DNA of 64,000 bases, from contig JAFCMP010000445.1 of assembly GCA_017506865.1 (NCBI GenBank), positions 1,736,001-1,800,000 on the forward strand. Reading direction: 5' to 3'. Of this stretch, positions 686 through 58,482 are shown one piece after another (position 1 is the first letter of the stretch; every line of letters starts with the position of its first letter). Position numbers and translations under genes: made by a program. The notes under the pieces are model-generated. The model was given only the letters and a program-made list of their open reading frames with translations. It ran no database searches and was not told the origin of the DNA. The stretch is from Tribonema minus. Its lineage: Eukaryota; Sar; Xanthophyceae; Tribonematales; Tribonemataceae.

Positions 686-3600
686 GATGCTGCGCCTCAC
701 ACAGGACCCCCCTGCGGACACCGAAGACGACGCGCCCGGAGAGCTGCTGCGGCAAGTGCGGAACGTTTTTGCAACAGCGCCTTTCCGGGAACTGCTCCAG
801 AGCCTCACGGGGCTCGATGTGAATGGGCACAGAGCGGCTGCGCGCCGTTTCCGGCCGGGCCTGGACTACACGCTGGCTACGCCGCAGTCGTGGGACTGCG
901 GAGAGGACTGCCTCGTGTTGGATGCGGTGCTGTGCTTTGTCGGTAAGTGCTGTTCTTACTTTGTCAAAGTACTTCAACGAAGTATGTGTTGCTATGTTTG
1001 AGCTGTGGCATTGCGGCGAGGACTGCGGCGCTGCGTCTTGTCGGAGAGTGCTGTTGCTGTGATTCATAGAAAATATATTATATATACAAAGGAATGAGAG
1101 CTGATTTTGGCCATGGCTGGATAGCACGGTTGCCACCTCGCAGTTGTGGGACTGCGTTGTATTAATGGAGGTGTTGCGCGTTGTCGGTGAGAAATATGTC
1201 GCGTGCACTGCATTGCTGCACGACAGCCTATTGTTTGATGTGAGGTAAATTGGATTCGTACATCTGTCACTGTGTACCACGTGATACACATGCATCAATC
1301 TATATCACAGGGGTACAAGGAATAGTGAAGTTCCGCAGGCTGCGGAGAGGACTGCCTCGTGCTGCATGTAACGCTGTGTTTTACTATGAGCCAATACTAG
1401 GGGAAGTATGTTCATCCAATATGAGGGGTAGGTATGCTCATCTTCAGATACCAGTGCATCTCTCTTCACAAAGCAGGTTGTATGTACTTTGACAAGTATT
1501 ACATGCCGTGCTGCGCGCCCTCCTTACAGCCCATGTGAACATCAGCATGGCCTTTCCTCATCCTTTGCAAATGACAAAAAGATGTACATACCGTACCATG
1601 CTCATGTGCCTTACACACGCCTGACATGACTGCAGCTGACTATTATACCATCGCCTCTTTTCAATCCTCGAAGATGACAAGGAGCCCTACAAAGAGGCCG
1701 CCTGGGTACAAGACGAAGTGGGGGGCTATCATACCTACCTGGGAGGCGACGACGGCGACGACGGCGGTGCAGAAGCAGAGGGGGCTGAGGGTGCCGGTGG
1801 TAAGCACGACAGCTAATTCTAGCCCTCCCTTAACCCTTATTTCAAGTTCAAGTTGAAGATGCGGCGACGATGGCGGTGCAGACGCGGAGGGGGCTGAGAG
1901 CGCTGGTGGTAAGCAAACTAGCTAATCCGAGCCGTCACCTCCTAACCCTAACGACGGTGGTGCAGAAGCAGAGGGGGCTGACGGCGCTAGTGGTAAGCAC
2001 GCTAGCTAACTCCAGCCCTCACCCTCACCCCTCACCCCTAAGCCTCAAGTTCAAAATGAAGTTTGTGCTGCTGCGTCAGCTACGTAATGCGATGGTACTC
2101 TTGATACAGGGCAGATGTAGAGGGGGCTGAGGTCGCTGGGTGTGCGCAAGCTACGTATCCACCCTAGCCCTGAGACAGGCACTGAAAGGGTATTGTGTCC
2201 CACGCCATGCCATTGTGCTGTTAACGCATCGCTCGTATATGCACACAGTCAGCGCTGGTGCGCGAGGAATTGAGCAATGCTAGCACTGTCGAGCACTGCG
2301 CACATCCACGCCCGCTACGCTGTAAACGTGCAGATGAGAATGAGGGGTGAATGTGGTGCTTTGCAGTGCACTGGGCGATTGCTTGCGACAGAGTATGCGT
2401 TGGGAGGAAACACTGATATCAAACCCAAACTTCACCTGCAGAGGTGCAAGCAAGCCCCGTGATTTGGCCGCCAGCATGTGGTTGCATGTCTCGTTGCACC
2501 TCTAGAGGGCGCAATCTACCAATTAAGTATGGAAATAAACGTCACAACAGGAAATACCCATCATAGCACCCAACCGCTCTGTGCAATCGCAGCGCCAGAC
2601 GCGGTTGTCTGCAACCAAACGCGACGGCACCAACACAATTCAGCTCAGAATCGCTCCCGTTCCCCATCGCTCTCAGCGCCAGACTACAAAGGCGACGAGG
2701 TCGGCTCGCTGCTCTACCAAGGTGTAACATGCGAACAAGAGCACGAATCCATTCCTGCACCCAATCGTTTTGCGCAATCGCAGCCAGACCAGCTTTCTTG
2801 GATTGAAAACAAGTGCTCTAACATGATGTCACATTGCTTCTGCTCCCCAATCCCTGCAGCGCCAGACGCGGCCGTCTACAAGGCCGACGAGGGCGGCTCG
2901 ATGCTGTCCGTGTCCGCCGCTAACACCGCTTCCACATGAGCTCAACCCGTTCTCACGCCCAGCTACTCTGCGCAATCGCAGCGCCAGACAACGCTGTCTT
3001 GGACCGCGTGAAAATGCTCCAACATGATGTCAAATTGCTTCTGCTCCCCAATTACCTCAGCGTCAGACGCAGCCGTCTACAAGGCCGACGAGGGCAACTC
3101 GCTGCTCTCCGTGTGCGCCGCCAACAATGCGGTCGTCTGTACTTGAGTGCGATGGCACTAACATGATGCAACTCAATCCCGCATCCCATTTCTCAGCGCC
3201 AGATGCGGCCGTCTACAAGGCGGACGAGGGCGGCTCGCTGCTCTCCGTGTCCGCCGCCAACAACGCGCTGAGCCTCGTCCTGCGCGACGACGCGGAGGTG
3301 CTGAGCTTCATCAAGTACGTCAGCGCCGCCGCGCCGGGCAGCCGCTATGACGTCGCCGCGGAGTACGTGGTGGCTGGCGGCGATGATGATGATGATGGCA
3401 GCGACCAGGAAGGCGAACCTGATGGCGAACAGGCCGGTGAGTCAAAGGGAGCGATGCCTGTCGCTTATACGCCTGGTGAGGTGCTGAACTTCATCAAGTA
3501 CATCAGCGCCGCCGCACCCGGCAGCCGCTACGATGTTGCCGCGGAGTACGTGGTAGCCGGCGGTGATGACGATGATGATGATGGCAGCGATCCAGAAGGC

Positions 3601-3939
3601 GAACCAGAGGGCAAAGAGGCCGGTGAGTCAAAGCGAGTGAGGCCTGTTGCGCATCTGTGGTCGACTTGTTGTTGGCTGCGGCTGCTGCGGCAACTGGCGG
3701 CGGCGGCAATGGTGACAGTGACACATGCAATCAAGGCTGCAAACCATCATCTTATGCGTTGAAGCGTGCTTCTGAACAACGCTTGATGCTCCTTGCAGAA
3801 TACCATTTCACACCATGTGACTGTCAGCATTTCTCACACCCTGATTTTGGCGTGCATTGTTTGCAACGCACTGGCAGGCGCAGGAGCCGATGAAGCCGGT
3901 GAAGCAGGCCCTGCCAGCAAGCGCAGAAAGGCGTCATAG
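686..3939 (+). CDS. OGFOD1: Tpa1/OGFOD1-type prolyl hydroxylase, C-terminal part, 4 exons
   Basis: Exons inferred: 686-942, 1674-1799, 3197-3436 (or to 3622), 3878-3939. All three internal junctions are GT-AG and phase 1, and the joined frame is open to TAG at 3937 (227 codons). Recognisable family landmarks in order: LTG then RRFRPGLDYTLATP and LDAVLCFV (exon 1); WVQDEVGGYHTYL plus an acidic linker (exon 2); a stretch equal to the human [20 protein letters not shown] block, then LVLRDD, VLSFIKYVS and RYDVAAEYV (exon 3); and a basic SKRRKAS tail, possibly nuclear (exon 4). In this 2-oxoglutarate/Fe(II) oxygenase family the N-terminal half carries catalysis (ribosomal protein uS12 proline hydroxylation, translation termination). 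That half is not present here, so the gene either starts upstream of the window or is truncated. Exon 1 follows a pyrimidine-rich tract and AACAG, so it is probably internal. Confidence 0.78.
1008..1400 (+). repeat. Decayed copies of the exon-1 3' edge within intron 1
   Basis: The end of exon 1 (about 880-950, with TGGGACTGCGGAGAGGACTGC and TTTGTCGGTAAG) recurs at about 1008-1060, 1118-1192 and 1337-1400. The copy at 1118-1192 keeps a donor-like GTCGGTGAG. None stays open in the right frame. Confidence 0.65.
1740..2010 (+). repeat. Three copies of the exon-2 3' edge
   Basis: The acidic-linker end of exon 2 (about 1745-1806, GCAGAAGCAGAGGGGGCTGA then GGTAAGC) is repeated at about 1860-1916 and 1950-2001. 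Each copy keeps a GGTAAGC donor. The second also has a GAAG/AT acceptor-like start, but its frame is shifted relative to the real exon. Confidence 0.7.
2580..3140 (+). repeat. Six decoy copies of the exon-3 5' edge
   Basis: The acceptor plus first codons of exon 3 (CAG/CGCCAGATGCGGCCGTC at 3195) recur with edges at 2593, 2677, 2784, 2860, 2982 and 3061. Copies at 2860 and 3061 also share about 50 nt of upstream intron (AACATGATGTCA, GCTTCTGCTCCCCAAT), giving a unit of about 201 bp. The 2860 and 3061 copies stay in frame for about 25 codons and then reach TGA, with no donor. Confidence 0.75.
3295..3630 (+). repeat. 183-bp in-frame duplication of the last domain strand
   Basis: 3295-3447 and 3478-3630 are near-identical, offset 183 nt (61 codons), and encode VLSFIKYVS...RYDVAAEYVV plus an Asp tract twice. 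Each copy ends in the same donor (GCCG/GTGAGTC at 3437 and 3623), so both donors join to the 3878 exon in phase 1. The spacer between them is open in frame. Confidence 0.8.
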
Positions 3940-5468
3940 ACAGTGACGCGTAATTCGCACTCATATCTCTGCGCGCCTTCAGTAGCATCGACCGCTAGTA
4001 CTGGTGTTGATTGGGCTGCGCGTGCTTTGATGCATGCGCGCCGCCCACCACCCAGATACAGCCGTGTAATAGTAATCACGGCCCAAGCGCCAGTTTTCAT
4101 GTGCAGTCGCTTCCTGTGCTCATCTCTGTGCGCAGTTGAACCACGCATGCCATCGTATTCTGGAATGTGCCCGCTATGAGACGCTGAACTGGCGGCAGTG
4201 CGTGGCATGTGACTTTCCGTGCTGAATGCAATGGCAGTCGCTTCCAACCTCTATCTAGTAGACTGCAACTTTGTTGCAATGGCTGTACGTCCACCAGCCT
4301 TCGTGCTAGGTTTCAGGAGGGATGGGGACAAATGTAAATATCGGGCATTTCCATGCCAGCATTTCCATGCCCATCGTGTACTCGTGCAGACATGAACTTA
4401 GCCTGGTATGTACAGGACCGCTACGAGAGGTTCCTGCTGTGTGGTGACTGCATGGTGTCCTAGCCCACATTGCAGAAGTCATCAGGTGTTCCAGTGCTCC
4501 AATCACAGCCTCTCAAAAGCCTGCAAGTGTTGCCTTGAGAGGGTAGCGACGATTGTAAGTATCGTATACTCTCTCCACATAAGTAGAGCCATGGCGTCAC
4601 AACGGCTGGTAAACGTGGCGGTGAAAAAGCAGACAAAGCCTTCCTCAACACTTTCTGAACATTTGGCAAAACACAACTTTGCAAGGCACCTAGATGCAGC
4701 CGAGCGTTGCTGCCACTCAATTCGAGGTGACTTCTGACAAACACGGGCACAAATTGAGCCCTGGCCACTGGCACCTCAAGGCGTGCTATCACCACGTCAA
4801 TCAGCCGCTGCATGAGAACTGCACGTGCCAGACGGTAATAGACGGACTTTGACAGTCAAGGCTTACACAAGACAAACAGCGATTGCAGCTTTCGTTCAGA
4901 AATCCCCCCATAGGGAGCTGCCCCCCCTGCACCTCTTTTTATGCTGACGATACATAAGTCGCTTTTGCTGCTTGTTGCATCACGACTGAATCATTAAGTC
5001 TGAGTGCTAGAAGTCACATGCAATCAATACGCCCAGCATTCATTCGCCATACTTTAACATGTTGTTAGTCAACTGCGTTTTTTGTTGGGCACGGCAATTA
5101 TTTTGGGGTCCCATGGACAGCATCGTCACGGTGTAGCTACAGCTGCTAGCACGACAAAGCGGTTGCTCAAGCACTTGACCTTCAACTTGAACTTGAAGGA
5201 TGCCAAAAATAACATTGCGGCACGCTGGTGCTAGCGGCGTCTGGGCAGGTGCGTTCGCAGTAAGGTGATGCCCACCGCTGGCGTTTGTCTAAAATGTAGC
5301 GCTGATGCTGCTGCGGTGATCATGTTTTGGCGTTGCTTGATTGACTTGACACGCGAGCAGCCTGAATCGCAGCGCTCTCAACCTTCCTTGTGTGCCCTCA
5401 TCAAGATCATGCCTCTCACCTAGCTGGCGCTACTGCTGCTGATCTCTGCTGGCCAGGGTAGGATCATC
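3940..5468. other. Gene-poor spacer
   Basis: Only short, non-conserved ORFs are visible on both strands (longest about 137 codons, unrecognised). It contains one GAAGTT/CTTCAA-type palindromic motif at 5179-5198. I see no RNA gene. Confidence 0.5.
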
Positions 5469-6967
5469 ATGGCGGCTGATGGCGAAGGCAACCCTCAGGA
5501 CACTTTGATGGACACCATGACTGTGCTCCTGCAGCAACAGTGTCTGCCGTTTGGCGTCGTGCACACCAGCAAGGCCTTCTGCGAAGGCATTGCTGCCAGC
5601 ACCGGAGTGCGGCTGGACGCGGCGTGCCAGAGCGACGTGATGGCTGCCTTGGCGAGTACCTTCGTTCGCAGGTGCATCGTGAAGCTCCACCTCTCCGGCC
5701 ACTTTCCCGCTAGCCTACAGCAGGCGCAGCCTCTCGGCTGGAGCTCCATAACCAGCCTCACGCTCCACAAATTCAAGGGCGGCATTTCATCACTCCCTCC
5801 CAATCTGGAGCAGCTGTGCCTCAACAGGACAGTGCTGGACGCTGAGATGATGCACGTCATGACAACCACAGCGCCAGCCAGCCTGCACACCCTCAAGCTG
5901 CTGCGGTGCCCGATCGCATGCGCCGTCGAAGAATTGAAGCTACCTACAACGCTGCGTACATTCGCGTGCGCGCAAGATACGCGCGGCGCATCAGAGCTCC
6001 CGTGTTGCACAAGGGCCTTCCGTATTCGCCTGCCGGACGGCCTCCAGCACCTGCACCTCATGCTATGGGGTGTGCTGGAAGGCACGCCATTCCCCACCAG
6101 CCTGGAGTCACTCCACCTGCAATGCTGTGCCATTGGCAACGAGCAAGGCAACAATCACAGCCAGCAGCAGCGCGACAGGCACGATGGCGTGCGCGTGCCG
6201 GCGGGGCTGCGGAAGCTGGCGGTTGCGGACTGCGAGTTCAACAGCGGTTTCGGCGACCTGCCGCCGAGCCTCATCACCTTCGACGCCAGCAGAGACAACG
6301 GCGCCAACCTGGCAAATGCAGATCACGACGAATGTGATGAGATGTGTGATGGTTACCTCTTCAATCCCTACACCTGGTCCCTCGCACCGCTGCCGCCCGG
6401 CCTTGTACACTTGGACTTGAGAGACCTCGACGTTTATGATGCGCCGCTGGGGCCCCTCCCCTGCACGCTGCAGTTCCTTCACATGGGGTGGCAGTTTGGT
6501 AAAGAGCTGGGGCCACTGCCCCCGTCCCTCAAGCGTTTAACTGTTGGAACGCCCTATACAACCCCTCGGCGCGCTGCCCAGGGGCCTGACGCACTTGCAG
6601 CTTGGGCGCAGTTACAACCGCGCCCTCGGGCCGCTCCCGCACACCCTGCAGCAACTGGAGACAGCCTCTGACGGTAAGTTCAACCACGACCTCGGACTTC
6701 TGCCGTCCAGCCTGCGCGTACTGCGCCTGGGCAAATGGTTTGCACAGCCCCTCTCGCGCCTCCCCGAAAGCCTGCAAGAGCTTCGCCTGGGCAGGAACTT
6801 CAACCACCCTCTGCCCCCCCTCCCAAGTACGCTCCAGAAACTGTTCATTGACGACAAGTATGCTCACCCCATCAAGCCTGCGAGTCGCACGCACGTGTAC
6901 CGCAGGCGTGCCCGTCAATACGGCTTCTGAAACAGCCCCACAGAATAGGGATGGAGTCAAGGTGTAA
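5469..6967 (+). pseudogene. FNIP/leucine-rich repeat gene with two frameshifts
   Basis: The first frame runs 5469-6671. It starts MAADGEGNPQDTLMD and carries an LRR region with LPPNLEQL, LPDGLQHL, LPPSLITF and LPPGLVHL units. Compared with the intact paralogue at 18303-19868, homology leaves this frame near 6545 and continues in the frame ending at 6930, with FNIP-like units (FNHDLGLLPSSLRVL, FNHPLPPLPSTLQKL). A second shift near 6905-6935 is needed to reach the paralogue's C-terminal RDGVKV and TAA at 6965. FNIP/LRR units form curved repeat scaffolds for protein binding; no enzymatic domain is seen. The ATG matches the second Met of the paralogue. It is either a decaying copy or two single-base assembly errors. 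Codon use is otherwise normal and the repeat phase is kept on both sides of each break. Confidence 0.75.
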
Positions 6968-12018: not shown

Positions 12019-12425
12019 ATGCGCCAGGTTTTTAGCCTGGAGCCGGTGGTAAGGAGCAGAAGTCGGAGCAGCGCATGGGCACAAACACACTTTTTTGAAG
12101 GATACCTGCAGAGATGATGCCGAGGAGTTGATCAAATCACTCCAACTGTTTTCCAGAGTGCCGACGGCGATCTCCAGTGTGACTTTGGTGGGGCAACCCG
12201 CCGCGTCACGCAACTGTCGGACGGTACCCTAATCGCAGAGGGCTTGGCTGCAGAGCACGCCATTCCTGAGCGGAACTGGGGCGAAGTCATGGATGCTGCG
12301 ACGCCATGTAAGCTCGCGGTCTTCGCTGGCACACCACCATTACAGATGTCAGCCGTTACACCTGCGGCACACCTGGCAAACGGCATCCTTACTAGCGCGT
12401 GCTCTTCACGCGGCACCATTATTAC

Positions 12426-12508
<83 letters not shown>

Positions 12509-15500
12509 CGGTTCAACTAACCGCAGCACCTGCTACTGCACCAGAGGCAGCCATGCCCATGGTGACGGCTGCAGCTTCAGGCGGTGCTTCCGACAGCAAT
12601 GCTGCTTGTGCTGCCTCAGCAGCAACGTAGCCTGTGCCGTTGACAGTGGCGCAAGCGGCACTGACAGCGGCACCAGCAGCCACGGTGGTAGACGCGCAAA
12701 TAGTGGAGGAGCAGCAGCCTGCGGCAGCAGTCGCTGCACAATCACTGGTAGCAGCAGCAGCAGCGGATGCAGCAGCAGTGTTCGGGATGCCGGCAGCAGC
12801 TGCAGTTGCCACAGCAGCAGCGTCAGCGCTGGCAGCGGCGCCGGCGGCAGTGACACCGCAACCGCTAGCAGCACCCGCAAACGTGCTGCCGCCATTACCA
12901 AAAGCACCGGCAGCAGCGCTTCTGGGGGCAGCGGAGGCGATTGTGGTGCCAGCGGCAGCAGAATCAGATGCAGCTGCGGCAGCAACGGCGGCAGCACCGT
13001 CAGTGGCAGCAGACCCTGAGCAAGCGAGAGCGAAAGCAGAATTGGAGCAGCAGGAGGCAGCAGTTGCGCCGCCGGTAGCACTGCCATCAGCAGCAGCGTT
13101 GGCGATGACGGTGCCTCAACAGGCGACGCTTGCGACAACAAACGCTCCAGTGCCATCGCAATCATCTTCAACATCATCAGCAGCTCAGCATTCACCAGCT
13201 TTGCCGCCAGCAGCGGCAGCGGCAGTCATGGCGCCGCCGCCGATGTCGGAGCCAGCAGCAGCGCCGGCATCGATGGCGCAGCAGCCGCCATCACTGGCGG
13301 CAGCAGCAGCAGTGCCAGCAGCGGCATCAGCAGCACCCGCTACGCCAGCAGCAGCGGCATCGGCAGCGCAGCAATCACCAGCGGCGGACGCTGTGGCGGC
13401 CACGGTGCCGCCACCGACAGCAGCGCCAGCAGTGGCGGCGGTATCGGCAGAACAGGAGATACCAGTGCCCTCATCGCCTGCGGCAGTAGCGGCGGACATG
13501 CCAGAGCTGCCGGCGGCGGCGGCAGCGGCGGCGGCGGCGGCGGCAGCGGCAGCGGCGGGAGGGGGGGGCACGGTCATACGGGCCGCGAGCGCGGCGGACA
13601 TCGCAGCGCTGCCGCCGTTCTTTCGGACCTGGGACGGCGACGAGTACAAGATACCCAGGATGTACTCGCTGGAGGGGTGTCATGAGGTGCACAGCGCTCA
13701 GGACGGGGGCGCGGGCAAGTTCAACTGCGTGCTGCTGCGGCTGCCGATGGGGCGCGCGCTGGTGAGCGCTGTGCGCGGCGCCGGCGTGCAGAGCGCGCGG
13801 CGCGCGGGCGTGTTCGCGCTGACGCCGTACAGCCAGCTGGTCACGGTGAGGGCTGACACGTGTGCATACGCGCTTCGTGCACAACTAGAATACACTAGAA
13901 TGACGCCGTACAGCCAGCTGGTCACGATGACCGCTAACGCATGCGTGCACACGCGCGCTTCCGATGATGATGCATGTGCGTTGCGATAGTGCGATGTGTG
14001 TATTAAGGTTGAAGTTGAAGTTGGTATTTCACGGTGACATCTCCTGTGCGTCACCCGTTGACATGGGATGAAGCGCGGGTAGGTATGCGCGCAGCCGCTC
14101 GTCAGATGACTTCCAGCAGCATGCGTGGGAACAAGTAGGCGGCAGTGCGTGCGCAAGAGCTCCCGCCTCATTGACGTGGTCATGCGGCTTGTGGTGTGCT
14201 GGGCAAACAGAGTAGCACACATCACCACCGTCCTGTGGTCGGGCTCTGCAGCGCGCGTTGATGTTAACTGTAGTTGCGCACCCTAGTGTAGACTTGCAAG
14301 GAGCTGAGCTAGACAAACCTGCGCAGGACGCACACACACCACTGTGCACAAGGTACCCAGGCGCACGACCGCAATTGGTGCCTTGCGTTGGCGTGCATAT
14401 GCATGTTCGGACACGATGCTGCATCCATTAAGGTCTGTGCCTGCATCAGCAACCACCGCCAATTGCAGCAACAGCGTGCAGCTCAGTGCTCAGCTCATCA
14501 GGGCAGTGCTCAGGCATCAAGTCGGCGCCCTGCCGTCGCTGCCGCACTGCTTTATTCGCTGCTTGGTTCATGCCGATTCCGCTCCAGCAGCCCGCATTTG
14601 AACTCGCAATGCTCCGATCCACAGGCTGCGCAGTGCATGGTAATGGTATGGGGTGCATTGCAGTATGACATGAAGCGCTGACCGCAGCGCTGAGAACAAG
14701 CGTCACTGCATGTATGACAGCAGCGCTCAGCTTATGTGCAGGCGGCTGCAGCCCCCGGCCGTTGTGGTGCCGCGCATGCCAAGTGCATGGCGCTTCAAGC
14801 ACCTCAGGATGAGATGAAGTCTGGGGCCACGTACACGTGTGTAGGTAGACACCGTGCGTCGCTCTTCCGCTGCACGCGCCTTTCCGCCCCTGCCGCGCCG
14901 CCCCTACCTTCAACACCAATTCAACACGACTGAGCCGGTCTGCTCGCTCATCGCTGCTTGCTCATCCTCAGGGGATACAGCCGCGCCATTACGGGTTCTG
15001 GGTCGTGTACCCGCACGTGGCGGGGCTTTGCGGCACTGCCGGCGGCGAAATGGACGTGCGGACTGCGCTGGGCTACCCTCACACCATCGCGAGCAGGGCC
15101 TTCGTGTGCATGGCAGAGGTCACCAGTCGCAGCAGGTGACAGTTACTTGTACCTTGACATCCTCAGGGTGTTGCAATGAAACACTATCCTGCGCCATCGC
15201 GAGCAGGGCCTTCGTGTGCATGGCAGAGGTCACCGGTCGCAGCAGGTGAAAATTACGAAACAGTTACTTTTTTATAGTGATCATTTGCAAAGAGTTGCAA
15301 CGGTACGCTGTCCAGCCTGCTGCTTCGCCACTTCCTTTTGTCATTGATTTGTGCTGCTTCGCAACTGCCTTGGGGAGCCGGAAGTGCCGGCTCGTGACCA
15401 TTCATAGGCGAAACACTACTTTGAAGTACTGCACAGGGAGAGAGTGGTCACATGGGAACACCTTTGCTCATACGGAACATGTGCAATTCATGCGTGCAGC

Positions 15501-17095: not shown

Positions 17096-18302
17096 TTTTT
17101 CCACAAGAAATGTGTGATGATGAGTGGGGAGTAATCACGTCGTGTGCCATGCTTCGTTGTGTGCTATGACAAGTCATTATTTCGGTACTATGGATGTTGC
17201 ACTTGAAGCTGGCAAACCGGCTGCATCTTCTGCACAACCTGTGCAATGCGGCGAAGCGTGCCTGTGTCTTCTCCTTGTCGGTCTGATCTCAAGGCGTGAA
17301 TGTACCCTTGCTTACGTTACAGAACATTGTGCGGGTGCCGCGTTGATGTGTATGTCCGCTAATAGTAAACACTAAGTGCCGCTAATAGTGAACACTAAGT
17401 GCTGATTTCGTGTGCTATGGCTTGTGCACACATCCCACCAGCTCTGTCCTGTGCGCACACATACCCAAGTATCAACAAGTCCAGATACACACTCCCAAAC
17501 AGCTTCATCTGACTTGGACCGGATCAGATCGTTCATGAACGGTCATCATCAGTCAAATAGCTTAACCCTAGGGAATGGGTCTTACATGGCCAGTCTGATC
17601 CAACAAGGTCAGTCTGTGTCACAAACCTACAGAAGCAGTCTGTGCTGCAAAGCTATAATGTATACTGGCAAGGCCGTCACAAACTTGTTTTGTTTTGCCA
17701 CAGTCTGGTACCTGGCTGGAGCATGGTGCTCAGCTTACACACATGGTGATCTTAGCAGCGGCGCCACAGAAGGCAGGAGTCAATATCCCCCAATAGCATC
17801 CACAACAGAGCTTTTCACACTGGCTGCATCCCTTTTTATTTAATTGAGTTTTAAATCTTCCAAACTTCAAGGTTCTTTGTGTAACGGCGAAGAAAAAGCA
17901 AAAACTCGTGCGCCACATGTGCTGATAGAGTTCAACCCAAGCTCTCTCTCATTTTGCAGCTTAGCCTGCAGTTGTGCGATTTTCCCTCATGGCGTACAAA
18001 AGCAGGCCGACGCGGGGGAGAAAGAAAACACGGCTGCGCAACGGTGAGCGCTGCTCTGGGACGTTGCGGGGCGCCCGTGCGCATCTGATCCATATCGCAC
18101 CTTTACATTCATGCAGATCATGTAGAGCTTCATTATTGTAGGACCTTCGTCGATCAATCACCGCAGTTTTGTGTTTTTGTTTGGACTGCAGCTGCTTGAG
18201 CGCTGAGCCATCAAGACTATGGTCGCATCTACATCTACTCTTGACATTGCATCGCTCTTGGCCACCCTTGGTACTGTTCGCTGGCCAGGTGCAGAGGGCG
18301 AA
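17096..18302. other. Spacer; short direct repeat
   Basis: No convincing gene. A 24-bp direct repeat (CCGCTAATAGT, AACACTAAGTG) lies at about 17353-17401. An in-frame extension of the next gene reaches 18219 but lacks a counterpart in its paralogue. Confidence 0.5.
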
Positions 18303-19868
18303 ATGGCGGCCGCGGGCATCGGCAACAGTGAGACCTTGGTGGACCTCATGCATGTGCTCCACCAAAGAGAGTGGCTGCCATTGGACGTGATGCAGGTCAA
18401 CAAGGCTCTCTACGAGGGCACTGCCACCAATGTCAATGTCGAGGTGTGGCTGAACGCGGCGTGCCGGCGCAAGTGCACAATCGCCCTGGCCAGCACTTTT
18501 GTTCGCAGGTGCATCGTGAAGCTCCATCTCTTTGGGCACTTTTGCGCAAGCCTTCAGCAGGTGCAGCCTCTCGGCTGGAGCGCCATCAAGAGCCTCATGC
18601 TCTACAAGTTCAAGGGCGGCATCACAGTGCTCCCCCCCAATCTTGAGCAGCTGAGCCTCAATAGGACGGTGCTGGATGCCAAGATGATGCGCATGATCAC
18701 GACCACTGCGCCAGCCAGCTTGCGAACCCTCAAGCTGCTGCGGTGCCCGATAGTATGCCACGCCAAACACCTGAACCTACCTGGAACGCTGCGTACGTTC
18801 GTGTGCGCGCGCTATCTACGAGGCTCTGCAGAGCTCTCACTCTCCGCAAGGACCTTCTGTTTTTGCCTCCCAGAGGGCCTCAAGCGCCATCACCTGGACC
18901 AATGGGACGTGCCGGATGGCGCATCGTTCCCCGCCAGCTTGCAGTCTCTCCACCTGCAGCAGTGCGTCATCGGCTACGAATCACACGTCCACGTGGGCGC
19001 AGCAAAAAGGCGCAGCAATCTGCCGCACAGCGAGAGGCGCGAAGGCGTGCGCCTGCCGGAGCGGCTGCGCACGCTCGCGCTCGCGTGCTGCGACTTCAAC
19101 TGCGGCTTCGGTGACCTGCCACCGAGCCTCGTCGACTTCACCGCCAACGGCCACAACCCCGCAAACCTGAGTGCCGATGAGGATGATCGGTCGGACGCGC
19201 GGGCAGGGGACCCTTGTTGCATCCCAAGCTCGGCGTTGTACACCATGTGCCACCCCTTTGTCTGGTCCCTCGCGCCGCTGCCGCCCGGTCTGGTGCGCCT
19301 GGACCTCGGCGATTTCCTTTCGTGCCGCGAATTGCCGAGCCCCCTTCCCCGCGCGCTGGAGTACCTTCACATCAGCGATGGCTTCAACGGCAGGCTGGAG
19401 TCGCTGCCCGCATCTCTCAAGACTCTTGTCCTCGGATATCACTACGACACACGCCTCGACGCGCTGCCTGCGCGCCTGATGCACCTGTGCCTCGGGTGCA
19501 AGTACAACCACCCCCTGGGACCGCTCCCGGACACCCTCGAGCAGCTGGAGACATACGATTATGGTGAGTTCAACCATGACCTTGGTCCCCTCCCATCCAG
19601 CCTGCGCGTACTGCGCCTTACCGGCAACTTTGCGCAGCCCCTTCCGCGCCTGCTCGAAGGCCTGAGAGAGCTCCGTGTCGGCCGCAGCTTCAACCACCCG
19701 CTCACCTCCCTCCCGAGCACGCTCGAGACACTCTTCATTGAGTCGCTCTCATATGATCACTCCATCGAGCCCGTGCCCGTGAGTCTCACGCACGTTCGCC
19801 GCAGGGTTGGGCACTACTTCAATGTCATCGATGAAGAGTACAGGGATGGGGTCAGGGTCACAGTGTAA
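18303..19868 (+). CDS. FNIP/leucine-rich repeat protein
   Basis: Intact single-exon frame of 521 residues from the ATG at 18303; an in-frame ATG at 18219 would add 28 residues. I prefer 18303 because MAAAGIGNSETLVDLMHV aligns with the start of the paralogue at 5469. The N-terminal 70 residues (to LASTFVRRCIVKLHLFGHF) are shared with that copy. They are followed by degenerate LRRs (LPPNLEQLSL, LPEGLKRHHL, LPERLRTLAL, LPPSLVDF, LPPGLVRLDL). The C-terminal half has about six 22-23-residue FNIP-type units (FNGRLESLPASLKTL, YNHPLGPLPDTLEQL, FNHDLGPLPSSLRVL, FNHPLTSLPSTLETL). These families are protein-interaction scaffolds, greatly expanded in amoebae, some algae and giant viruses. No signal peptide or membrane segment is visible. 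Its TGA/TAA neighbourhood is also homologous to the 5469 copy, so the duplication included the 3' flank. Confidence 0.85.
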   Translation: MAAAGIGNSETLVDLMHVLHQREWLPLDVMQVNKALYEGTATNVNVEVWLNAACRRKCTIALASTFVRRCIVKLHLFGHFCASLQQVQPLGWSAIKSLMLYKFKGGITVLPPNLEQLSLNRTVLDAKMMRMITTTAPASLRTLKLLRCPIVCHAKHLNLPGTLRTFVCARYLRGSAELSLSARTFCFCLPEGLKRHHLDQWDVPDGASFPASLQSLHLQQCVIGYESHVHVGAAKRRSNLPHSERREGVRLPERLRTLALACCDFNCGFGDLPPSLVDFTANGHNPANLSADEDDRSDARAGDPCCIPSSALYTMCHPFVWSLAPLPPGLVRLDLGDFLSCRELPSPLPRALEYLHISDGFNGRLESLPASLKTLVLGYHYDTRLDALPARLMHLCLGCKYNHPLGPLPDTLEQLETYDYGEFNHDLGPLPSSLRVLRLTGNFAQPLPRLLEGLRELRVGRSFNHPLTSLPSTLETLFIESLSYDHSIEPVPVSLTHVRRRVGHYFNVIDEEYRDGVRVTV

Positions 19869-21688: not shown

Positions 21689-22600
21689 TCAGTCAAATAT
21701 GGCGTCATGCAGCAGCCTGTCGAGGCCGCCAGCTTGGTACAGAATATCATCTTTCTTGGTGTCGCAGATGTCAGGCTCAGCAGTCTCGTCGAGGCAGTTG
21801 AGAAACCTCTCCGCATTGGGGTCATCGCCTATCTGCACAAAGGACAGCGCGATCTGCGTGTGGTTGGCGATGAACTTGTTGGCGGGGTCAGCGAAGTACC
21901 TGATGGTCCGCATCACCGGTTCCTCGTCGTCGGCGCTTCCATCTAGGAGCACGATGAACGTAGTACCCGGCACGACCTCGTAGTTGGGGCGCTTGGTGCC
22001 TGCGTAGGTATTGAGTGCTTCATGCAGAGCCTTGTCCAGGCCCGTCGAACCCCGCGGCCTGTACTCCCTGAAGACTTGCTTGACTTGGGATGGGCTGGTG
22101 AGCTCCCCCACAGAAGTCACCTCCGAATCGAACAAATAGAGCGGGACCTGGTGGTCATTATCATACTTGAAAATCGTGTCCACCATGTTCTCGACGGCAA
22201 CTCCCGCGGAGTCCCACCGGGTCCTGCCGTTCCTGTCCGGGGCAGCCATGGAGCCAGATCTGTCCACGATCAGCACATACTGCCGGATAAGAGCCTCTCT
22301 CTGCAGGGTCGTCTTTTCCTTAGGTGTCTCGGCCATGGTGGCAATGAGGTCAGGGTTCGACCTCGCAGGAAGAGCAAACTCTTTGGGCACGTCGCTGCCC
22401 TGGGCGTTGACGAACATAGTGGAGAGAGCCGCAGCGGGAGGGAGCTTCATTGTCGCTGCTGTACGCTTGACGGTGGACACACGCGTGATCACGTGACGAA
22501 TCAAAAACAAAACACACGACGAGAATAAACAGCAGAATAAACCCACTTCCAAGAACGTTCTTTTAGCGAGCAGGCCATCACTTGACTGAAGAGCACTGCA
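21240..22600. repeat. Segmental duplication, copy 1 (VWA locus)
   Basis: 3' flank, gene and 5' flank match 23920-25880. Landmarks shared: GTGCATGCACTGAAGCAT, GCTGG.GTATGACAGAACC, CATCATGGCAGAATGGTGTT downstream; CAGAATAAA.CCCA and GAACGTTCTTT upstream. Confidence 0.8.
21689..22450 (-). CDS. VWA-domain protein
   Basis: Single-exon minus-strand frame; I choose the ATG at 22450 (MKLPPAAALSTMFVNAQG), giving 253 residues, because the duplicated copy conserves this start and the extra upstream codons are low-quality. The von Willebrand A fold is clear: strand and MIDAS DRSGSM (DxSxS) near residue 63, a GSTGLDKAL block supplying the MIDAS threonine, and FIVLLDG-SADDEE supplying the third aspartate. 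The MIDAS is therefore complete and should bind a divalent metal and a ligand or partner protein. No signal peptide, TM segment or second domain is seen, so it is likely an intracellular VWA protein; the partner is unknown. Confidence 0.88.
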   Translation of the reverse strand: MKLPPAAALSTMFVNAQGSDVPKEFALPARSNPDLIATMAETPKEKTTLQREALIRQYVLIVDRSGSMAAPDRNGRTRWDSAGVAVENMVDTIFKYDNDHQVPLYLFDSEVTSVGELTSPSQVKQVFREYRPRGSTGLDKALHEALNTYAGTKRPNYEVVPGTTFIVLLDGSADDEEPVMRTIRYFADPANKFIANHTQIALSFVQIGDDPNAERFLNCLDETAEPDICDTKKDDILYQAGGLDRLLHDAIFD

Positions 22601-24630
22601 GGGTTCACGACACGTCAATCCATCACACATCGAATTCACACTTGCTGGGGGCAAACCGACAAACAACCGATAATGGTTGCACGGCTGTGCAATACCCATG
22701 AGATCATGTGAGTGCCTACTTTGAGGTATATGGGTCTTGACTTGCATTGAGCGATATATGTGATGTCATCTCGTTGGCACATGCAAAGAACAGGTCTTCA
22801 AGTATGCCGTGCTAAACCGCCCAAGTAAGGTCGCCAGCCTCAGCTGAGAGACAGAAGCACCACCATCACTCATACTGCAAGGGCATTGGTGAATAAAAGC
22901 TGAAGAGAGCAAGTTTGTCTAAATGTATACCTGCAAGAGTACACTTGCGCAGCCTGAGAGATGTCAGCCACACACAAATAGGTATGGGAGATGAAACAAG
23001 GTGTAGTTGACGTGCAACTGCAGGCGATGCGCATATATGCAAGGGCAACGGCAACAGTGACCCATTGGAAATGCAAGGCCAGAGTGGAACGTACATGGGC
23101 TGCGCAGATCATGAATTACTTTGAAGTGTCACAAACAGCCTTAGGGATGCATCCATACCCTGAGGAATCTGATACGGACCGGAATTGCTTTGACGGTTCC
23201 TTGACACAGTTTTCATCAGGCATGCAGCAGTTTCTATCCAATTGCCATCAATGAGCTGCTGCAGAAAAGTGTCATTCTCGTTTTTTGCTGCGCATGCATG
23301 CATGACAGCGGCATGCACATGCTGCTGCACGCCATCGCTCAGCTCGGCGTCACTGGCCGCGCCGCACAATGCGAAAAGCGACAACGGCGGCAGCGGCGGT
23401 GACAGCAGCGGCACGGCAGCGGCCATTGTGTGCCACAATATTGGATTGCCGTGCAGTGCAACACGCCAAAAAGCGGCGGCAGCGTGCTAGGACAGCACCG
23501 CCAGGGCCATCACTGTGGCATCAATGACAACAGGGACATAATGAATCATCTCCGCTGCAGCTGCAGCACTTGTGACGGTGACAGTGCGCTGCTGCTGCCG
23601 CAGGCTCTGTCGCCGGCGCTGCCGCTCATGACAGCGCCATGAATGTAGTTGTTGCAGCTCATGCCGTGGCTGCAGTTGTCTCGAGCGCACCCAAGACTCT
23701 GCCATGTCAGTGTCAATTCATAAGCGCCACAAATCTTCGCCTTGCCACCCCTGTTTTTCCACAGCCGCTCATGCAGTACAGCTGCCCCTCCAGTTGGATC
23801 TCAGTGTTCTGTGGCTTTTTGCAGATTGCTGACCTTGCGACTTGAGCACTAGCAGCGCCACAACACCCCCCCCCCGCATTAACATACTTCAACGTAGCAG
23901 CGGTCATCACTTTCAGCCAGCACATGCACTTCAACTACAGCCAGCGCATGCAGTTCAACTACGGTGCATGCACTGAAGCATATGTGCATATTTGTGATCG
24001 TTTCTCGCGAACAACAAACACAATCATCGTACAGCACCATACCACATTCGCAATTGCCAGAGTGAAAACCTCGTTGAATCCACCGCTCTGTACTCACATG
24101 ATTATTGTGGCAGTAAAAGCCTACTTAACACTAGCTTAATGCTGATGTGGTATCAGCAGAACACTGGCAGTTGACACTTCAAAAGTCGTGGTGCACAACC
24201 TGAACTCAACATCATGCCGACGAGCCAGCAACAAAATACGGAAGAAAAGCACCAAAGCTCTATTTTGAACAACAGTGCATTTACTTCATGTGTGGAGTGG
24301 CTGGAGTATGACAGAACCACCGCAAACTGTCGCTCGTGACAGTGAGATCACTACCGAGCACTCGCGTCTGCCTGCACTTCCGAAGTCGGCTTAGCACATG
24401 CGCCCTTGAGCACAAACTGGCTATTATGATCCATCATGGCAGAATGGTGTTGGGTCCGTGCATGCATCTCTTCCTGAAAGTCATGCTGTCGCCAGCTGCG
24501 GTCACGGTTTGCAGCCTACTATAATGCACCAGCATATCCTAATGAACTTAAGCTTATAAGCTTTAAAGCAATTGCTTGCCGAACCTCTGCCTCAGCACAG
24601 AGCGTGTTGTGCCGATACAATTGCTAGTGC
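22451..24630. other. Spacer between VWA copies
   Basis: No supported gene; short unrecognised ORFs only. The part from about 23920 belongs to the duplicated segment. Confidence 0.45.
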
Positions 24631-25770
24631 TCAGTCAAATATGGCGTCATGCAGCAGCCTGTCCAGCCCGCCAGCTTGGTACAGGATGTCGTCTTTCTTG
24701 GTGTCGCAGATGTCCGGCTCAGCGGTCTCGTCGAGGCGCGTGAGAAACCTCTCCGCATTGGGGTCATCGCCTATCTGCACAAAGGACAGCGCGATCTGCG
24801 TGTGGTTGGCGATGAACTTGTTGGCAGGGTCAGCAAAGTAAGTACCTGATGGTCCGCAGCACCGCTTCCTCGTCGTCGGCACCTCCGTCTAGGAGCACAA
24901 TGAACGTGGTACCCGGCACGACCTCGTAGTTGGGGCGCTTGGTGCCTGCCTAGGTATTGAGTGCTTCATGCAGAGCCTTGTCCAGGCCCGTCGAACCCCG
25001 CGGCCTGTACTCCCTGAAGACCTGCTTGACTTGGGATGGGCTGGTGAGCTCGCCCACAAATATCACCTCTGAATCGAAGACTGCAGCAGGGGAATCCGCG
25101 AAGAGCAGAACAGGGGGCCACAACAAAGGTGCAACGCGTGTCAGTCAGTGCTCGGCGACACACTGTGCCCAAGCGCACAGAGCCTTGAGAGCATCCAGTC
25201 TTGATGACGGCATGATGCGGCATCAATGTTGTTTATGTGCCATGCAGCTGGTGCCATCTGCTGTGCGCTGAGCTTGCATCAATGCCACAGAAAGGTTACA
25301 GCAACGCGGCGCACTCTGAACACGCAAGCAGCCCGCGGCAGAAGGACGAACTCCCAATAAGCCTTGAATAAGGCCTTTGACAACATGTAATCTGAGCATC
25401 AGCATGATCTGCTTGGATAGAAGCGCCACCCCTCACAAGGACACGCCTACTCACCGTATAGGGGAACTGTGTGGTCAACGTCATACTTGAAAATTGTGTC
25501 GACCATGTTCTCGACGGCAACCCCCGCGGAGTCCCACCGGGTCCTGCCCTTCCCGTCCGGGGTAGACATGGAGCCAGACCTATCCACGATCAGCACGTAC
25601 TGCCGAACCAGAGCCTCCTTTTGCAGATCCATCTTCTCCTAGGGTGTCTCGGCCATGGTGACAATAAGGTCAGGGTTCGATCTCGCAGGAAGAGCAAACT
25701 CCTTGGGCACGTCGCTGCCCTGGGCGTTGACAAACATAGTGCTAGGAGGCGCGGCGGGAGGGAGCTTCAT
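24631..25770 (-). pseudogene. VWA-domain pseudogene with an intron
   Basis: Duplicate of 21689-22450. Exon 1 is 25770-25455 and exon 2 25080-24631. The 374-nt gap (25454-25081) begins GTGAGT and ends TGCAG and, when removed, restores the frame in phase 1, reading VPLY-V-FDSEV where the intact copy has VPLY-L-FDSEV. Lesions: TAG at 25641-25639 (intact copy has AAG), TAG at 24952-24950 (intact copy TAC), and a 4-nt duplication near 24838-24842 that shifts the frame in the C-terminal third. The MIDAS DRSGSM remains. As read, it cannot make a full VWA domain. Confidence 0.88.
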
Positions 25771-25830
25771 TGTCGCTGCTGCCGCGCTGTACCACTTGAC
25801 GGGGGGAAGTACCAGAGTGGTCAAAGCTGA

Positions 25831-26255
25831 GAAAAAAAATGGCCAGAATAAAACCCAACTCTCTGAGAACGTTCTTTATCACTACGTTGGGGGATCTGCG
25901 CCTCACACTCCAATTGGAGTTCAGCTAGTTGCAGTTATGCTGCCGGACTTAAGGCCTGCCATTGTCAACCTCATCTCCACCAATTTGCATTTTTTTGCCT
26001 TGAACCTTTTTCCCACGCAGCCAGAACACACAGCCGCAGAAGCAAATGGTTCACCATTCATGCATGCTCACGCATTGGAGCTCAGCTGCCGCCAATCGAA
26101 TTGACTTTAGTAATTGATGCCTATTTGAAGACGCTGACCTTGCGGCTGAGCACCAGCAGCCCGTTCTGTTCCTGTTCCTGTGGGAACTGGGAACTTCAAG
26201 TAGAAGTCATTTTTTTGCTGCTGCAGTGTGCGTTTTATCATACGTTTTATCATAC
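25831..26255. other. Short spacer between divergent loci
   Basis: Contains TTCAAGTAGAAG at about 26195 and a direct repeat of CGTTTTATCATA just before the next ATG. No gene seen. Confidence 0.4.
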
Positions 26256-28359: not shown

Positions 28360-29871
28360 CCATAGCTGCTGAGTCATGCAAAGCTCGCTGTTCACTGCCC
28401 ATAAGCCACAAGTAGCAGTTGTGCACACTTTGTAGAGTAGGTGCGCTGGCCCCTCATGAGGCTGGCAAAACTCTGCCTGTGTTGCTGTTCTCAAGCTGCG
28501 ACATGCATGTGCAACCGCTCAATACACGTCATTTCATGCATCTACAACTCTGAGGTGGTGGCGTGTGTGTGTGTGTGTTGCATCCTGCTGTGGCATAATA
28601 TGGGCGGCATGCAGTACACATTTTTTGCGGGCATGCGCACAGAGGCAGGCAGCAATGGCATGTTGGTATCACATAGAAGTAAAAATGAGCAGCTTGATGC
28701 AGCATCATGTCAGCATGAGCATGAGCAATAGGAAGGCGGGAGCAGCCTGCATGGCAGTAGCAGCCCTGGCACATATGGTCAGCCATGCAGCAATGGCATG
28801 ATGGCATCACATTGGTGTAAGAGAATACAGCACAAGCAACAGCAAGTGGGGAGCAGCCCTGAGAGTAGCAGTACTGGCGCAAAGGTGACCGTAAACAGGC
28901 TGAGGATGTTATGCTGGTCACTGCATGTCAGGCCACTTTGGGCGTACGCATGTACGTGTACGTATGTGCGCCGTGCTGAAAATATATCCTTCAATGCATC
29001 ACATGCAAGCTGCAAAACACGCATACAAAGTATATAATGCTACCTGTGCAGCAGCGCCAAGAGTCTGGTGCATGTTCCATGCCTGTGAGTCTGCATGTGA
29101 CAGAAGCAGCAACGCTACTAGTAGTGTAGGGTACGTTGAAGAGGAAAGTGCCATAGTATGTGTGCAGCAGCCGTGCACATTTTTGCATTCCCCGTGCAAA
29201 GGTGGCATGTGGTACAGACTGCATGCTTGCAGAGTTGCACAAATAAAAGACAGGGTGGTGCTGAAACTTAGCGGGGAACAACAGCCACAGAAGCAAGAGA
29301 CTCGGTACACGAAGAATGATAGAAAAGGGCAGCAGCGGCAGCAGCAGAGGCAGCAGCAGTAGTGCACATGCAGCCGCGCAAGGGAGTAATGTGTTGTACT
29401 TTAATACATAGCAGCAATCAGTTCCTCTATGAGAGGGACATTGTGCCCTCAGTGGCATTGTCTGCACAGCAGATAACATGAGGTATCATACAAATGGGTC
29501 TATCTACAACTGGCTTTTGGACCAGATTAGGGACAGCACTGATGGCGCATCACCTGAGAAATCACAGCCGCCATCTCTACAGAGGACAGTCACACCCATA
29601 CACTTTGGAAGACAATAACAGCTGGCTGGCATACACGCAAAGGCGCAGCAGCGGCTGCTCTGCCGATCGTCTCAGCAATATCCCCTGAGCCAGAGAGCTA
29701 GTACATGCGCATGATACCTTGGCTTGGCGAAGCCACAGTAGGCACGAACATGCATGACGACCGCTACCGCTTCATACCGCAACTGTGCCGCGTGGCGCCA
29801 CCGCAGCTGCTCTCATGACTTGACCACAATCATGCCTCCTGATGCAGGGCACGAGCCGATGGCACCGCGCC
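28360..29871. other. Spacer
   Basis: No supported gene. Features seen: a (GT)n run near 28565 and a GGCAGCAGCAG-rich end near 29330-29360. Confidence 0.45.
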
Positions 29872-32800
29872 TCAGCCCCCTCTCCCCGCACCCCTCAGCC
29901 CCCTCACGAGCTCCGCCAGCTCCCGCTCCAGCTCCGCGGCGGTGGGCCGCGCCGCAGGGTCCTGCGCCCACGTGCGCCGCAGCAGCGCCCCGTAGGCGTC
30001 AGCGCTCAGCCCGTAGCAGTTGCGCGCCTGCACGGGCGGCCTCGCGCCGCCGGCGAGCTCCAGCACGTACTCCTCCTCCGTCACGCCGCACAGGGGGTTG
30101 TCGGGGACGCCCCACGCGCCCGCCGCCTCCCACACCATCACGCCGCAGCTGAAGACGTCGCACGCGGCGCCGTACGGCCCGCCGCTGAACACCTCCGGCG
30201 CAGACCATCCCGATGTTCCCACCTCCCCCGTCACGCGTCCGCTGCCGTCGAGCACCGCCGCGGAGCCGAGGTCCGCGATCTTGGCGACCCACGCGCTGCC
30301 GTCGCCGCTGCCGCCGCCGCCGCTGCCGCCGCTGCGCAGCGCGATCACCACGTTGTGAGACTTGATGTCACGGTGACAGATGCGCCGCGCGTGCAGCGCC
30401 GCGAGGCCGCGCGCCGCCTGGCGCAGCACGTCGAGGCGCGCGCCGCCGCCGCAGCGCACCCACGCTGCGCCCATGCCGCCGCCGCTGGCGCTGGCGCCGG
30501 CGCTGCTTGCAGCGGCGCCGCTGCCGCTTATGCCGGCAGCGGCAGCGGCAGCGGCAGCGCTGGGGCTGAATTCACCCTCGCTGCCGCTGCTGCCGCCGCT
30601 GCTGCCAGCAGGCAGTGCGGCTGCGGCGGCAACATCGGCGGCAGCGACGAGTGCGTCGTGGAGCGACCCGCCCTCCAGCAGCTCCAGCACAAGGCACGGC
30701 GCGGGGTCTAGCCACATGCCCAGGAGCTGGACGACATTGAGGCAGCCGGCAGCGCGCCGCATCGCCTCCGCCTCAGCAGCGACGCAGCACAGCACCGCCA
30801 GCGGCGGCGGCTCCCGAGCGTAGCGGAACTCTTTGAGCGCCACAGCGACCATGCCGCTGCCTCCGCCGCCGCCGCAGCTGCCGCTGGCAGCGTTCGCGCT
30901 GCTGCTACTGCCGCCGCCGCCGTGCGTGCTGCTGCCGCCGCTGATGAAGCTGCGCCGCAGCGCTGCGACGCGCACCGATGCGAAGCGACCGCGCCCCAAG
31001 AACACCCCCACTCCGGCAGTGTCATCCAGACATTCCATGGGGTCCAGGCGTAACGGCCTACTGGTGTCGCCGCTGCCGCCGCCGCCACCATCGCGGCTTC
31101 CGTCCTCCTCCCCTGCAAAGCCAGCGCCAGCACCATCGCCGCCGCTGCTGCCTGCACCGCCGCTGCTGTCGCCGCCTGCTTCGTCGCCCACGTGAAAGCT
31201 TTCATGGCCGGCGTCGGCGAAAAAAAAGGTGTTATCGCCGTCCAACAGCCGCCTTAGACGCGCGTGCACGGCTGAGCGCTGGGCAGCCTCCTCCGCCGGC
31301 GACAGCGCTGGCCGGTCGTGGTCAGGGGTCCTATCCGCGCCGCGTGGGCTGCCGACCATGTGTCGTAGCGACGCCTGCGGTGATTGAAGGTTATGGTCAG
31401 GCACCGCTTGCAAGGGTACATGTGACTGCACGATACACATGATCATGGGATAGTGTGCACAAAGGGCCGTAGCGACGCCTGCGAGATTGAATGGTAATGC
31501 GTAGGCGTCGCCTGCGAAGTACATATACGGCACAATGTAAATGGTGCGATGGGGTGCACAGACAGTCATGCAATCCGCACGCGCGCACCTCACTGAATGC
31601 CAACATGAGCAATGGCGGCGCCTTGTGTGCGTAGAGCGAGAACAATACAATCAGTATTGCGGAATGGCGCATGAGTGCTGCACTGAGGCCAACGGAAAAA
31701 GCAAGGCAATGTGTAAGATTGTGACGATCATGGGTGCATGCCCACGACGTACACCTTAATCATGCATGTATGACGGGACGTGGAAGCAGTCCGACTGGTG
31801 CGCAATGCAACATGCTGACATATGTGCGTTTATGTGCGAATTGTACTTGGTACGCATACATCCACCAAATGAAATATTGTCATATGATGACTGAGCGCTG
31901 CTGCTCACCTTCACGCTGCGCATCCCCTCCCGCAGGTCATGGCCACCCCCATCGGGGCTAAGCGACAGGTTCATCCGCTTGGGAGAAGTCGGCGGCAGGG
32001 GCGGGGGCGGGGGCGGCGGGGAACGCGGCGGCGTTGGCGTCCCTCCCATGTTGTCCCCCCCCACCCCCGAGAGGGACAGGGGGGTGACGTTGGGCGCTGT
32101 GATTTGTGGTGGCTGTTGGGCAGCGCACACAGGTGTTGAGGTTGCTGTTGGAGTTGAAGCGCGCAGCAGCGCTGCTCGAACAATCTCCGTCACGAAGTCT
32201 GCTGCCACGCGGTGCACCGCAGCTGGGACGCCGCCGCCGCTGCCGCCGCCGCTGCAGCCAGAGCCGCTGCTGCCGCCACCAGAGCCGCTGCCGGTGCCTG
32301 ACCCGCCGCCAGCGTTTTCAGCAGGGCACGTGGTAGCAGGTTCACTATTGCTTCCAACTATGGAGAGGCGCTCCATTGCGGCGAGCACTGATGCGGAAGC
32401 GATGCTCTGTGCTGTCTGCTGCACGCCACCGACGCTGTTTTGCTGCTCTATAGACGGCGTCATCGCCGGAGCGGCGTCGCGCAATTCTGCGAAGGCTACA
32501 GGTTGGTCAGCGAAGCGCCTGTTGTCGCTGCCACCACCCGCGTCACTGACACGCTCAATGCTGCCGCCATTGCTGCTATTGTGGTCGCGATGGCTGCTGG
32601 CCATCAGCGCGGGCTGCTGCTGCTGCTGCTCCGCATGCCGTGTTGATGCTGCAAATGGCGGTGCGGCATGCTGCGGCTGCGACTCTGACAATTTGAAGGC
32701 AAATGGGGTTGTTGGCGTAGTGCTGGTGGCATCTGATGCTGCTGCAGGCGAAGCTGCCTGCCGCTGCTGCTGTCGCTGCTGCTGCTGCCGCCGCTGCTGG

Positions 32801-55572: not shown

Positions 55573-55587
55573 GCCCAGACCGCCTCG

Positions 55588-58479: not shown

Positions 58480-58482
58480 CTC

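Follow-up and report, generated by a model that had tools for sequence, protein, structure and literature searches.

Why do introns of an alga hold worn copies of the ends of their neighbouring exons, and how do these copies arise? The question was raised by a 64,000-nucleotide stretch of the Tribonema minus (Xanthophyceae) assembly (158 Mb, 554 contigs), namely C445:1736001-1800000, hereafter the window. An original prediction, made from the letters alone, had stated that pieces including an exon border and its splice site are tandemly copied into the adjoining intron in an Ofd1/Tpa1-like gene and at other loci of the window, more often than expected by chance. We term such a diverged copy of an exon edge in the adjoining intron an echo. 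On the evidence below, we propose, with a probability of roughly three in four, that tandem duplication recurs across live splice junctions, and that the copies are spliced out, are roughly neutral and lengthen introns.

The window was joined to its flanks into a 260-kb sequence (ctg; window position is ctg position minus 36000), and self-comparison revealed short local tandem duplications that were strongly clustered, chiefly at ctg 1.6–12.3 kb, at 30–40 kb (the Ofd1-like gene) and at 176–180 kb (a MATE transporter gene). Reading of these clusters indicated that pieces ending at a donor recur downstream in the next intron, and that pieces starting at an acceptor recur upstream, in the intron before it. 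At a cut-off of 22/30, 17.1% of real tiles had a match, versus 0.12% with reversed local sequence. We then scored 40-nt exon edges against introns in eight genes whose exons are backed by homology or transcript (46 introns, 37.9 kb), taking as cut-off the 99.5th percentile of the scores that 312 alignments to reversed introns gave; both comparisons bore out the predicted excess over chance. Own-intron echoes were detected at 39/92 exon edges (81 echoes, one to five per edge), a proportion that is not an unbiased genome rate, because the genes were chosen non-randomly and partly for their duplications. In Ofd1 and MATE1–3, 12/21 donor and 11/21 acceptor edges were echoed, with 50 echoes on the 42 edges; 6/10 edges were echoed in CCT_C51, and 7/10, with 14 echoes, in MATE_C7.

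The direction of copying was strongly marked. When the wrong flanking intron was scored, donor edges gave 0/46 matches (none upstream) and acceptor edges 3/42; two of these three cases lay in exons of 54 and 69 nt with overlapping edges, and the third was a pair of short matches. Exon middles were echoed in 1/69, and duplication affected 141/341 exon tiles lying no more than 25 nt from a junction versus 7/255 beyond 150 nt. The copies mostly carried a single edge with one splice site and not complete exons in tandem, the CCT_C51 exons of 54 and 69 nt being a partial exception. Echoes were 72–100% identical to the live edge and carried separate changes, and the exon part of the duplicated piece had a median of about 50 bases (58/81 echoes measured). 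Spacing between successive copies was 42–249 bp with a median of 145 bp in four genes, and offsets had no whole-codon bias (15/50 multiples of three, 35/50 not). These results supported the recurrent junction-spanning tandem duplication that had been predicted.

The eight models were Ofd1, MATE1, MATE2, MATE3, CCT_C51, CCT_C279, CCT_C235 and MATE_C7. The Ofd1-like model has ten exons, with borders set from GT/GC-AG, reading frame and the homologues P0103–P0105. MATE1, MATE2 and MATE3, all on the contig of the window, were modelled by tblastn with P0223, P0226 and P0227. The three TCP-1 family (CCT) genes, on C51, C279 and C235, have stop-free joined exons, and the C51 and C235 models are partial. 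Ofd1 was taken from the original prediction, MATE1 for its duplication cluster, and MATE2 and MATE3 as paralogues of MATE1; CCT_C51 was included because a family scan showed echoes there, and CCT_C279 and CCT_C235 because the scan showed none. MATE_C7 was chosen because a transcript was available, and its spliced model equalled the transcript protein P0226 at 599/615 aligned residues. An ab initio gene finder self-trained on the sequence drifted and took echoes for exons, and the curated homology models were used for the counts instead. Two genes with echoes visible by eye, a minus-strand gene at ctg 3–12 kb and a tRNA-synt_1 gene in L028, were left out of the edge counts, their exons being incompletely modelled. 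GC-AG introns were present at ctg 32259 (Ofd1 exon 3 donor), 180553 and 107811 (MATE1/2 exon 5 donor) and 236462 (MATE3); two of the three MATE paralogues have GC, and one has GT, at the exon 5 donor.

About 6.8 kb of the Ofd1-like model precede the window, and the exons originally numbered 1, 2 and 3 are exons 7, 8 and 9 of ten. Edge copies of all three were recovered by the thresholded edge test and were more numerous than had been described. In window positions, the features are as follows.

686–942, plus strand: Ofd1-like exon 7 (GT/AG borders, tblastn with P0103/P0104/P0105)
1149–1186, plus strand: echo of the exon 7 donor edge, ending TCG/GTGAGA at the junction (edge score 24, near threshold)
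1347–1382, plus strand: echo of the exon 7 donor edge, splice site lost (edge score 37; also in BLAST self-comparison)
1674–1799, plus strand: Ofd1-like exon 8 (homology; end at 1799 fixed by frame, ab initio model agrees)
1869–1908, plus strand: echo of the exon 8 donor edge, junction GTG/GTAAGC intact (edge test)
1953–1987, plus strand: echo of the exon 8 donor edge, followed by an intact GTG/GTAAGC (edge test)
2111–2132, plus strand: echo of the exon 8 donor edge, older and degraded (edge test)
2593–2614, plus strand: echo of the exon 9 acceptor edge, degraded (edge score 24, near threshold)
2676–2707, plus strand: echo of the exon 9 acceptor edge (edge score 32)
2860–2899, plus strand: echo of the exon 9 acceptor edge, junction CTGCAG/CGC (95% over 40 nt)
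3061–3095, plus strand: echo of the exon 9 acceptor edge (89%)
3197–3436, plus strand: Ofd1-like exon 9 with the Ofd1_CTDD domain (PF10637, 2.9e-17; homology)
3478–3650, plus strand: 173-bp copy of the 3' half of exon 9 including the donor (86% by BLAST)
3878–3939, plus strand: Ofd1-like exon 10, the last (homology, borders)

The exon 9 donor-edge echo was scored at 3583–3622, and the exon-like part of the 3478–3650 copy ends at 3622; the BLAST offset of this copy, 183 bp, is a multiple of three, and the reading frame is open across it. One match of the exon 7 acceptor, at 605–627 (score 26), lies beside a poly-C tract and is doubtful, yet it is counted among the 39 edges.

The decay of the echoes was examined in the 50 echoes of Ofd1 and MATE1–3. 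Gapped anchored alignment of the intron sides was dropped, as its null identity of 0.61 was too high, and ungapped profiles were used. Exon-side identity to the live edge was 0.75, 0.80 and 0.73 at positions 1–10, 11–20 and 21–30, values inflated by the selection of matches. Intron-side identity fell from 0.60 at positions 3–6 to 0.42, 0.35 and 0.30 at positions 7–15, 16–25 and 26–40 (null about 0.27). The splice dinucleotide had an identity of 0.78 versus 0.75–0.80 in the first 20 exon-like bases; being no better preserved than its exon neighbours, it makes the echoes look neutral and gave no sign of splice sites under selection. The arrays also tended to age outwards: nearer echoes outscored farther ones in a net 30/66 pairs from 16 arrays, which was reached by 12/10000 permutations. 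Some echoes were common to MATE1, MATE2 and MATE3, and these are therefore older than the gene copies.

Transcript evidence was available for MATE_C7 in the form of P0226, one assembled isoform from EukProt and the only transcript compared, for one gene. None of the 14 echoes was present in this protein, and no segment of our model was absent from it. Differences at the ends of P0226 suggest that the transcript comes from another strain or a close relative. The NCBI model of the same gene, P0225, was identical to P0226 at 450/453 aligned residues, and in addition it contained two echo segments (15 and 30 residues) without counterpart in the transcript. By a window test for near-repeats (10 of 16), 8 were found in P0103, 3 in P0223 and 2 in P0225, and none in P0224, P0227, P0228 or 20 other proteins; the homologues P0104 and P0105 and the transcript P0226 likewise had no such internal repeats. 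Internal near-repeats were thus present in half of the six NCBI protein models of T. minus that were inspected, and, as one of the three is contradicted by the transcript, the published T. minus proteome may contain many false exons. Echoes were located in existing introns, and the sole transcript had no extra exon. They appear to be spliced out with the intron, which was demonstrated by this one transcript of one gene and would apply elsewhere by extension.

Echoes were also sought elsewhere in the genome by family scans that require no gene model, where an echo is a second nearby match to the same profile range (same strand, less than 1.2 kb apart, profile overlap of at least 20, start or end shared within 3 positions). 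Among 155 matches of three families, 7 echo junctions were identified on five contigs. The TCP-1 scan (73 matches) gave five, on C51, C516, C135 (two) and C5, and the tRNA-synt_1 scan (37 matches) gave two on C445, about 1.3 Mb from the window. Direction was as predicted in 7/7: with a shared start (4) the shorter copy lay upstream, and with a shared end (3) it lay downstream. The DNA of two of these loci displays arrays directly. In three further pairs, 20 or more profile positions overlap but neither end is shared (C279 808.7–809.9 kb, C4 335.8–336.6 kb and C224 496.1–497.2 kb). A kinase family scan (131 matches, E up to 0.001) was kept outside the echo-junction counts.

Tandem duplication across a live junction explains the direction, location, decay and outward-ageing tendency of the echoes. 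In the model that we propose, a short tandem duplication would span the junction and include tens of exon-edge bases, the splice site and some intron. The copy contiguous with the exon body would stay in use, so that the new copy would fall inside the intron and be removed by splicing. The echo would then decay while the live edge is maintained by selection, and repeated events at one junction would displace older echoes outwards, producing arrays of up to five and a longer intron, each event adding about 145 bp if the median spacing is taken as its size. The stretches from junction to farthest echo together made up 42% of intron length in Ofd1, 45% in MATE1, 20% in MATE2 and 36% in MATE3, which supported the suggestion that intron growth is the outcome. 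We infer that a simple tandem duplication is the unit event, that its fitness effect is nil, and that junctions are favoured mutationally and not only by detection.

The last point has to be weighed against the possibility that ascertainment alone produces the pattern: duplications would arise evenly, exonic ones would be purged, and copies of edges would be visible for longer, with no junction preference. Such a bias is real in principle, since edge copies stay detectable longer when only one partner drifts, and the neutral-looking decay, the choice of part of the genes for their duplications and the occurrence of intron-only duplications (70/434 interior tiles, null 12) all agree with it. 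We therefore simulated evenly spread tandem duplication with neutral decay under 14 unbiased settings, and added junction-biased settings. Interior duplication exceeded edge echoes in 11/14 unbiased settings, and the edge/interior ratio reached at most about 1.4, whereas in the four genes the rate was 0.55 for edges versus 0.16 for interiors (null 0.03), a ratio of about 3.4–4. Among the settings tried, only those with a 6- to 15-fold junction bias fitted both values (edges 0.42–0.57, interiors 0.12–0.21). When young duplications were matched for age in seven genes, they were found at 8/82 edges versus 27/1005 intron tiles (odds ratio 3.9; Fisher p 0.003, the tiles being non-independent). Ascertainment without any preference is thus an unlikely, if serious, explanation. 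A junction preference beyond detection bias is likely but unproven; in genes rich in echoes we judge a few-fold preference to be real, though likewise unproven. The predicted enrichment of junction-spanning duplications over duplications elsewhere is accordingly supported by the simulations and the age-matched odds ratio, but less firmly than their abundance; tiles at intron ends disagree with it.

Those tiles belong to a series of observations that weigh against recurrent duplication at favoured junctions. Outside echo zones, intron-end tiles matched in 10/135, equal to the reversed null (10), and junction-biased simulations predict an intron-end similarity of 0.18–0.26; the same simulations give 0.57–0.89 echoes per edge versus the 50 per 42 edges observed. 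The intron sides of most echo pairs align poorly, which could reflect fast two-sided decay with indels or the copying of little intron. Only 1/18 edges of CCT_C279 and 2/12 of CCT_C235 were echoed, the adaptin scan (45 matches) gave no echo junction by the rule, and no exon-edge echoes were recognised by eye in a 50-kb sample, C112:1510001-1560000 (L022–L026); the process is uneven between genes. Ofd1 and MATE1 were selected for their duplications, which inflates the edge rates, and homology, not RNA, underlies every gene model except MATE_C7. Strict outward ageing is broken by the Ofd1 exon 2 array, whose most distant echo, at 809 bp, ranks second in preservation. Finally, columns that are echo in both of two MATE paralogues agree at 0.74–0.94 versus 0.53–0.76 for other aligned intron columns (exon columns 0.85–0.93), a gap widened artificially both by misalignment within introns and by the picking of echoes by exon similarity; some constraint or conversion may contribute to it.

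This agreement, and the sharing of echoes by the three paralogues, would also be expected if echoes were decoy exons or spare splice sites, retained as poison exons or competing sites to control productive splicing, as had been suggested. GT/GC or AG is kept in 36/50 echoes, and NCBI gene models take some echoes as exons. But dinucleotides decay like the exon-like part, offsets are not codon-biased, the sole MATE_C7 transcript lacks all of its 14 echoes, and the paralogue difference is inflated as stated; control by decoys is therefore not supported and, in our view, quite improbable. Nascent exon or intron gain, in which echoes are young duplicated mini-exons and some are used, is improbable as well: it would account for the near-repeats inside the annotated P0103, P0223 and P0225 and for the in-frame exon 9 copy at 3478–3650, but P0104, P0105 and P0226 have no such repeats, the C7 transcript skips its echoes, many echoes are degraded, and most offsets would shift the frame. 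An assembly or haplotype artefact is highly improbable. The genome is a draft in 554 contigs, and nothing else was found that would favour this explanation, but the copies differ from the live edge by separate changes and recur on several contigs, and their presence in three MATE paralogues speaks against assembly error. Recurrent duplication across live junctions accordingly remains our preferred reading. A bolder extension of it, which we put forward tentatively and at somewhat less than even odds, is that in this lineage mutation concentrates at splice junctions: a transcription- or splicing-linked process would repeatedly copy the live exon edge into the intron, placing new copies beside the exon and moving older ones outwards, and a decaying record of earlier exon edges would then make up much of the intron. 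Template slippage at spliced junctions, named in the original prediction, is a possible mutational cause; the sole boundary motif tested, TTGAAGT/ACTTCAA, was not significantly enriched at echo boundaries (7/58 versus a background of 0.079, p 0.17; 23/81 echoes gave no boundary). As a separate observation, ACTTCAA/TTGAAGT was about tenfold over-represented in introns of the eight genes on both strands, as were telomere-like CCCTAA repeats and runs of G or C.

Longer introns are usually explained by transposons and random insertion. In tandem exon duplication with alternative splicing, exonic sequence is also repeated in an adjoining intron, but whole exons with both splice sites are involved, whereas the T. 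minus echoes mostly comprise one edge and one splice site. Introners, intron-creating elements, likewise give intron sequence a repetitive origin across a genome, but as dispersed copies of one element; the echoes studied here are local copies of their own exon edge, and one 401-bp echo stretch, the sole echo searched against the whole genome, had a single match at its own place. A closer parallel is tandem genomic duplication, by which genes are known to gain introns (Rogers 1989; reviewed in PMC3443670) and which shares with our model a short intragenic tandem duplication and the use of one splice-site copy; an exonic AGGT piece is duplicated there to give a new intron, whereas in T. minus the duplication affects a junction that already exists. 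A junction-spanning tandem duplication also made a new intron in the potato RdRp gene; the unit comprised the 3' end of an intron and the 5' edge of the next exon, with putative branch site, polypyrimidine tract and acceptor (PMC4974935). The potato and T. minus duplications both include an exon edge together with an intron end and carry splice signals along. The potato event was single and added an intron, whereas T. minus has up to five events per junction, at donors and acceptors of several genes, which lengthen existing introns and added no exon in the sole transcript. A single junction-spanning duplication is thus known already; no report of systematic exon-edge echo arrays was noticed in our literature search. 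Since each echo retains a constrained partner, the live exon, the age, order and rate of duplications become measurable junction by junction. If junctions are truly favoured, this would point to a link of splicing or transcription with local DNA duplication.

The other loci of the original prediction fared less clearly.

13820–13956, plus strand: duplicated segment with a possible donor GTGAGG at 13847 (copies 13820–13873 and 13901–13956, 84% over 56 bp)
15084–15256, plus strand: duplicated segment with a possible donor GTGACAG at 15136 (copies 15084–15146 and 15194–15256, 95% over 63 bp)
31374–31478, minus strand: kinase gene acceptor, with the exon starting at 31374 and a short acceptor-edge echo starting at 31478 (read by eye)

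In the 12–17 kb gene, where two exon ends were said to be copied, both duplications exist. The GT sites were judged by eye; ab initio prediction placed a donor at 15136 but not at 13847, and the 13.9 kb copy does not close the reading frame; on these grounds the pair is not proven to straddle used donors. The echo of the kinase acceptor is visible by eye but absent from the BLAST pairs. For the further possible case at 53.5–53.7 kb, a direct repeat is visible at 53530–53700 around CGTAAAAGGATG ... CTCAGTACCAGCTTCAGCAG, with copies about 130 bp apart, but no exon border could be assigned and the case was not confirmed.

Several minor features were observed in addition. The C112 sample contained repeated GAAGAGCACTTGC-type low-complexity arrays and local repeats of several hundred bp; most of its local repeats had a low-complexity or repeat-like appearance. 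Two related genes with long open reading frames (ORFs), at 5424–6930 and 18207–19868 of the window, are 71% identical in DNA over 1.5 kb; FNIP repeats matched above the cut-off in the latter and only below it in the former, and no exon-edge echoes were noticed in either. The stretch 53935–62085 on the minus strand holds a reverse transcriptase ORF (PF00078), probably LINE-like, and beside it an ORF region with an internal tandem duplication (offset 336 bp, 75%). On the same strand, 21689–22528 and 24245–25781 hold a vWA-domain gene and a related second stretch, with pieces 84–88% identical and 2.9–3.3 kb apart. Among the relatives of the vWA-domain protein are phaeovirus EsV-1-176 and a protein of a Feldmannia virus, and these genes are possibly virus-derived sequences in the algal genome.

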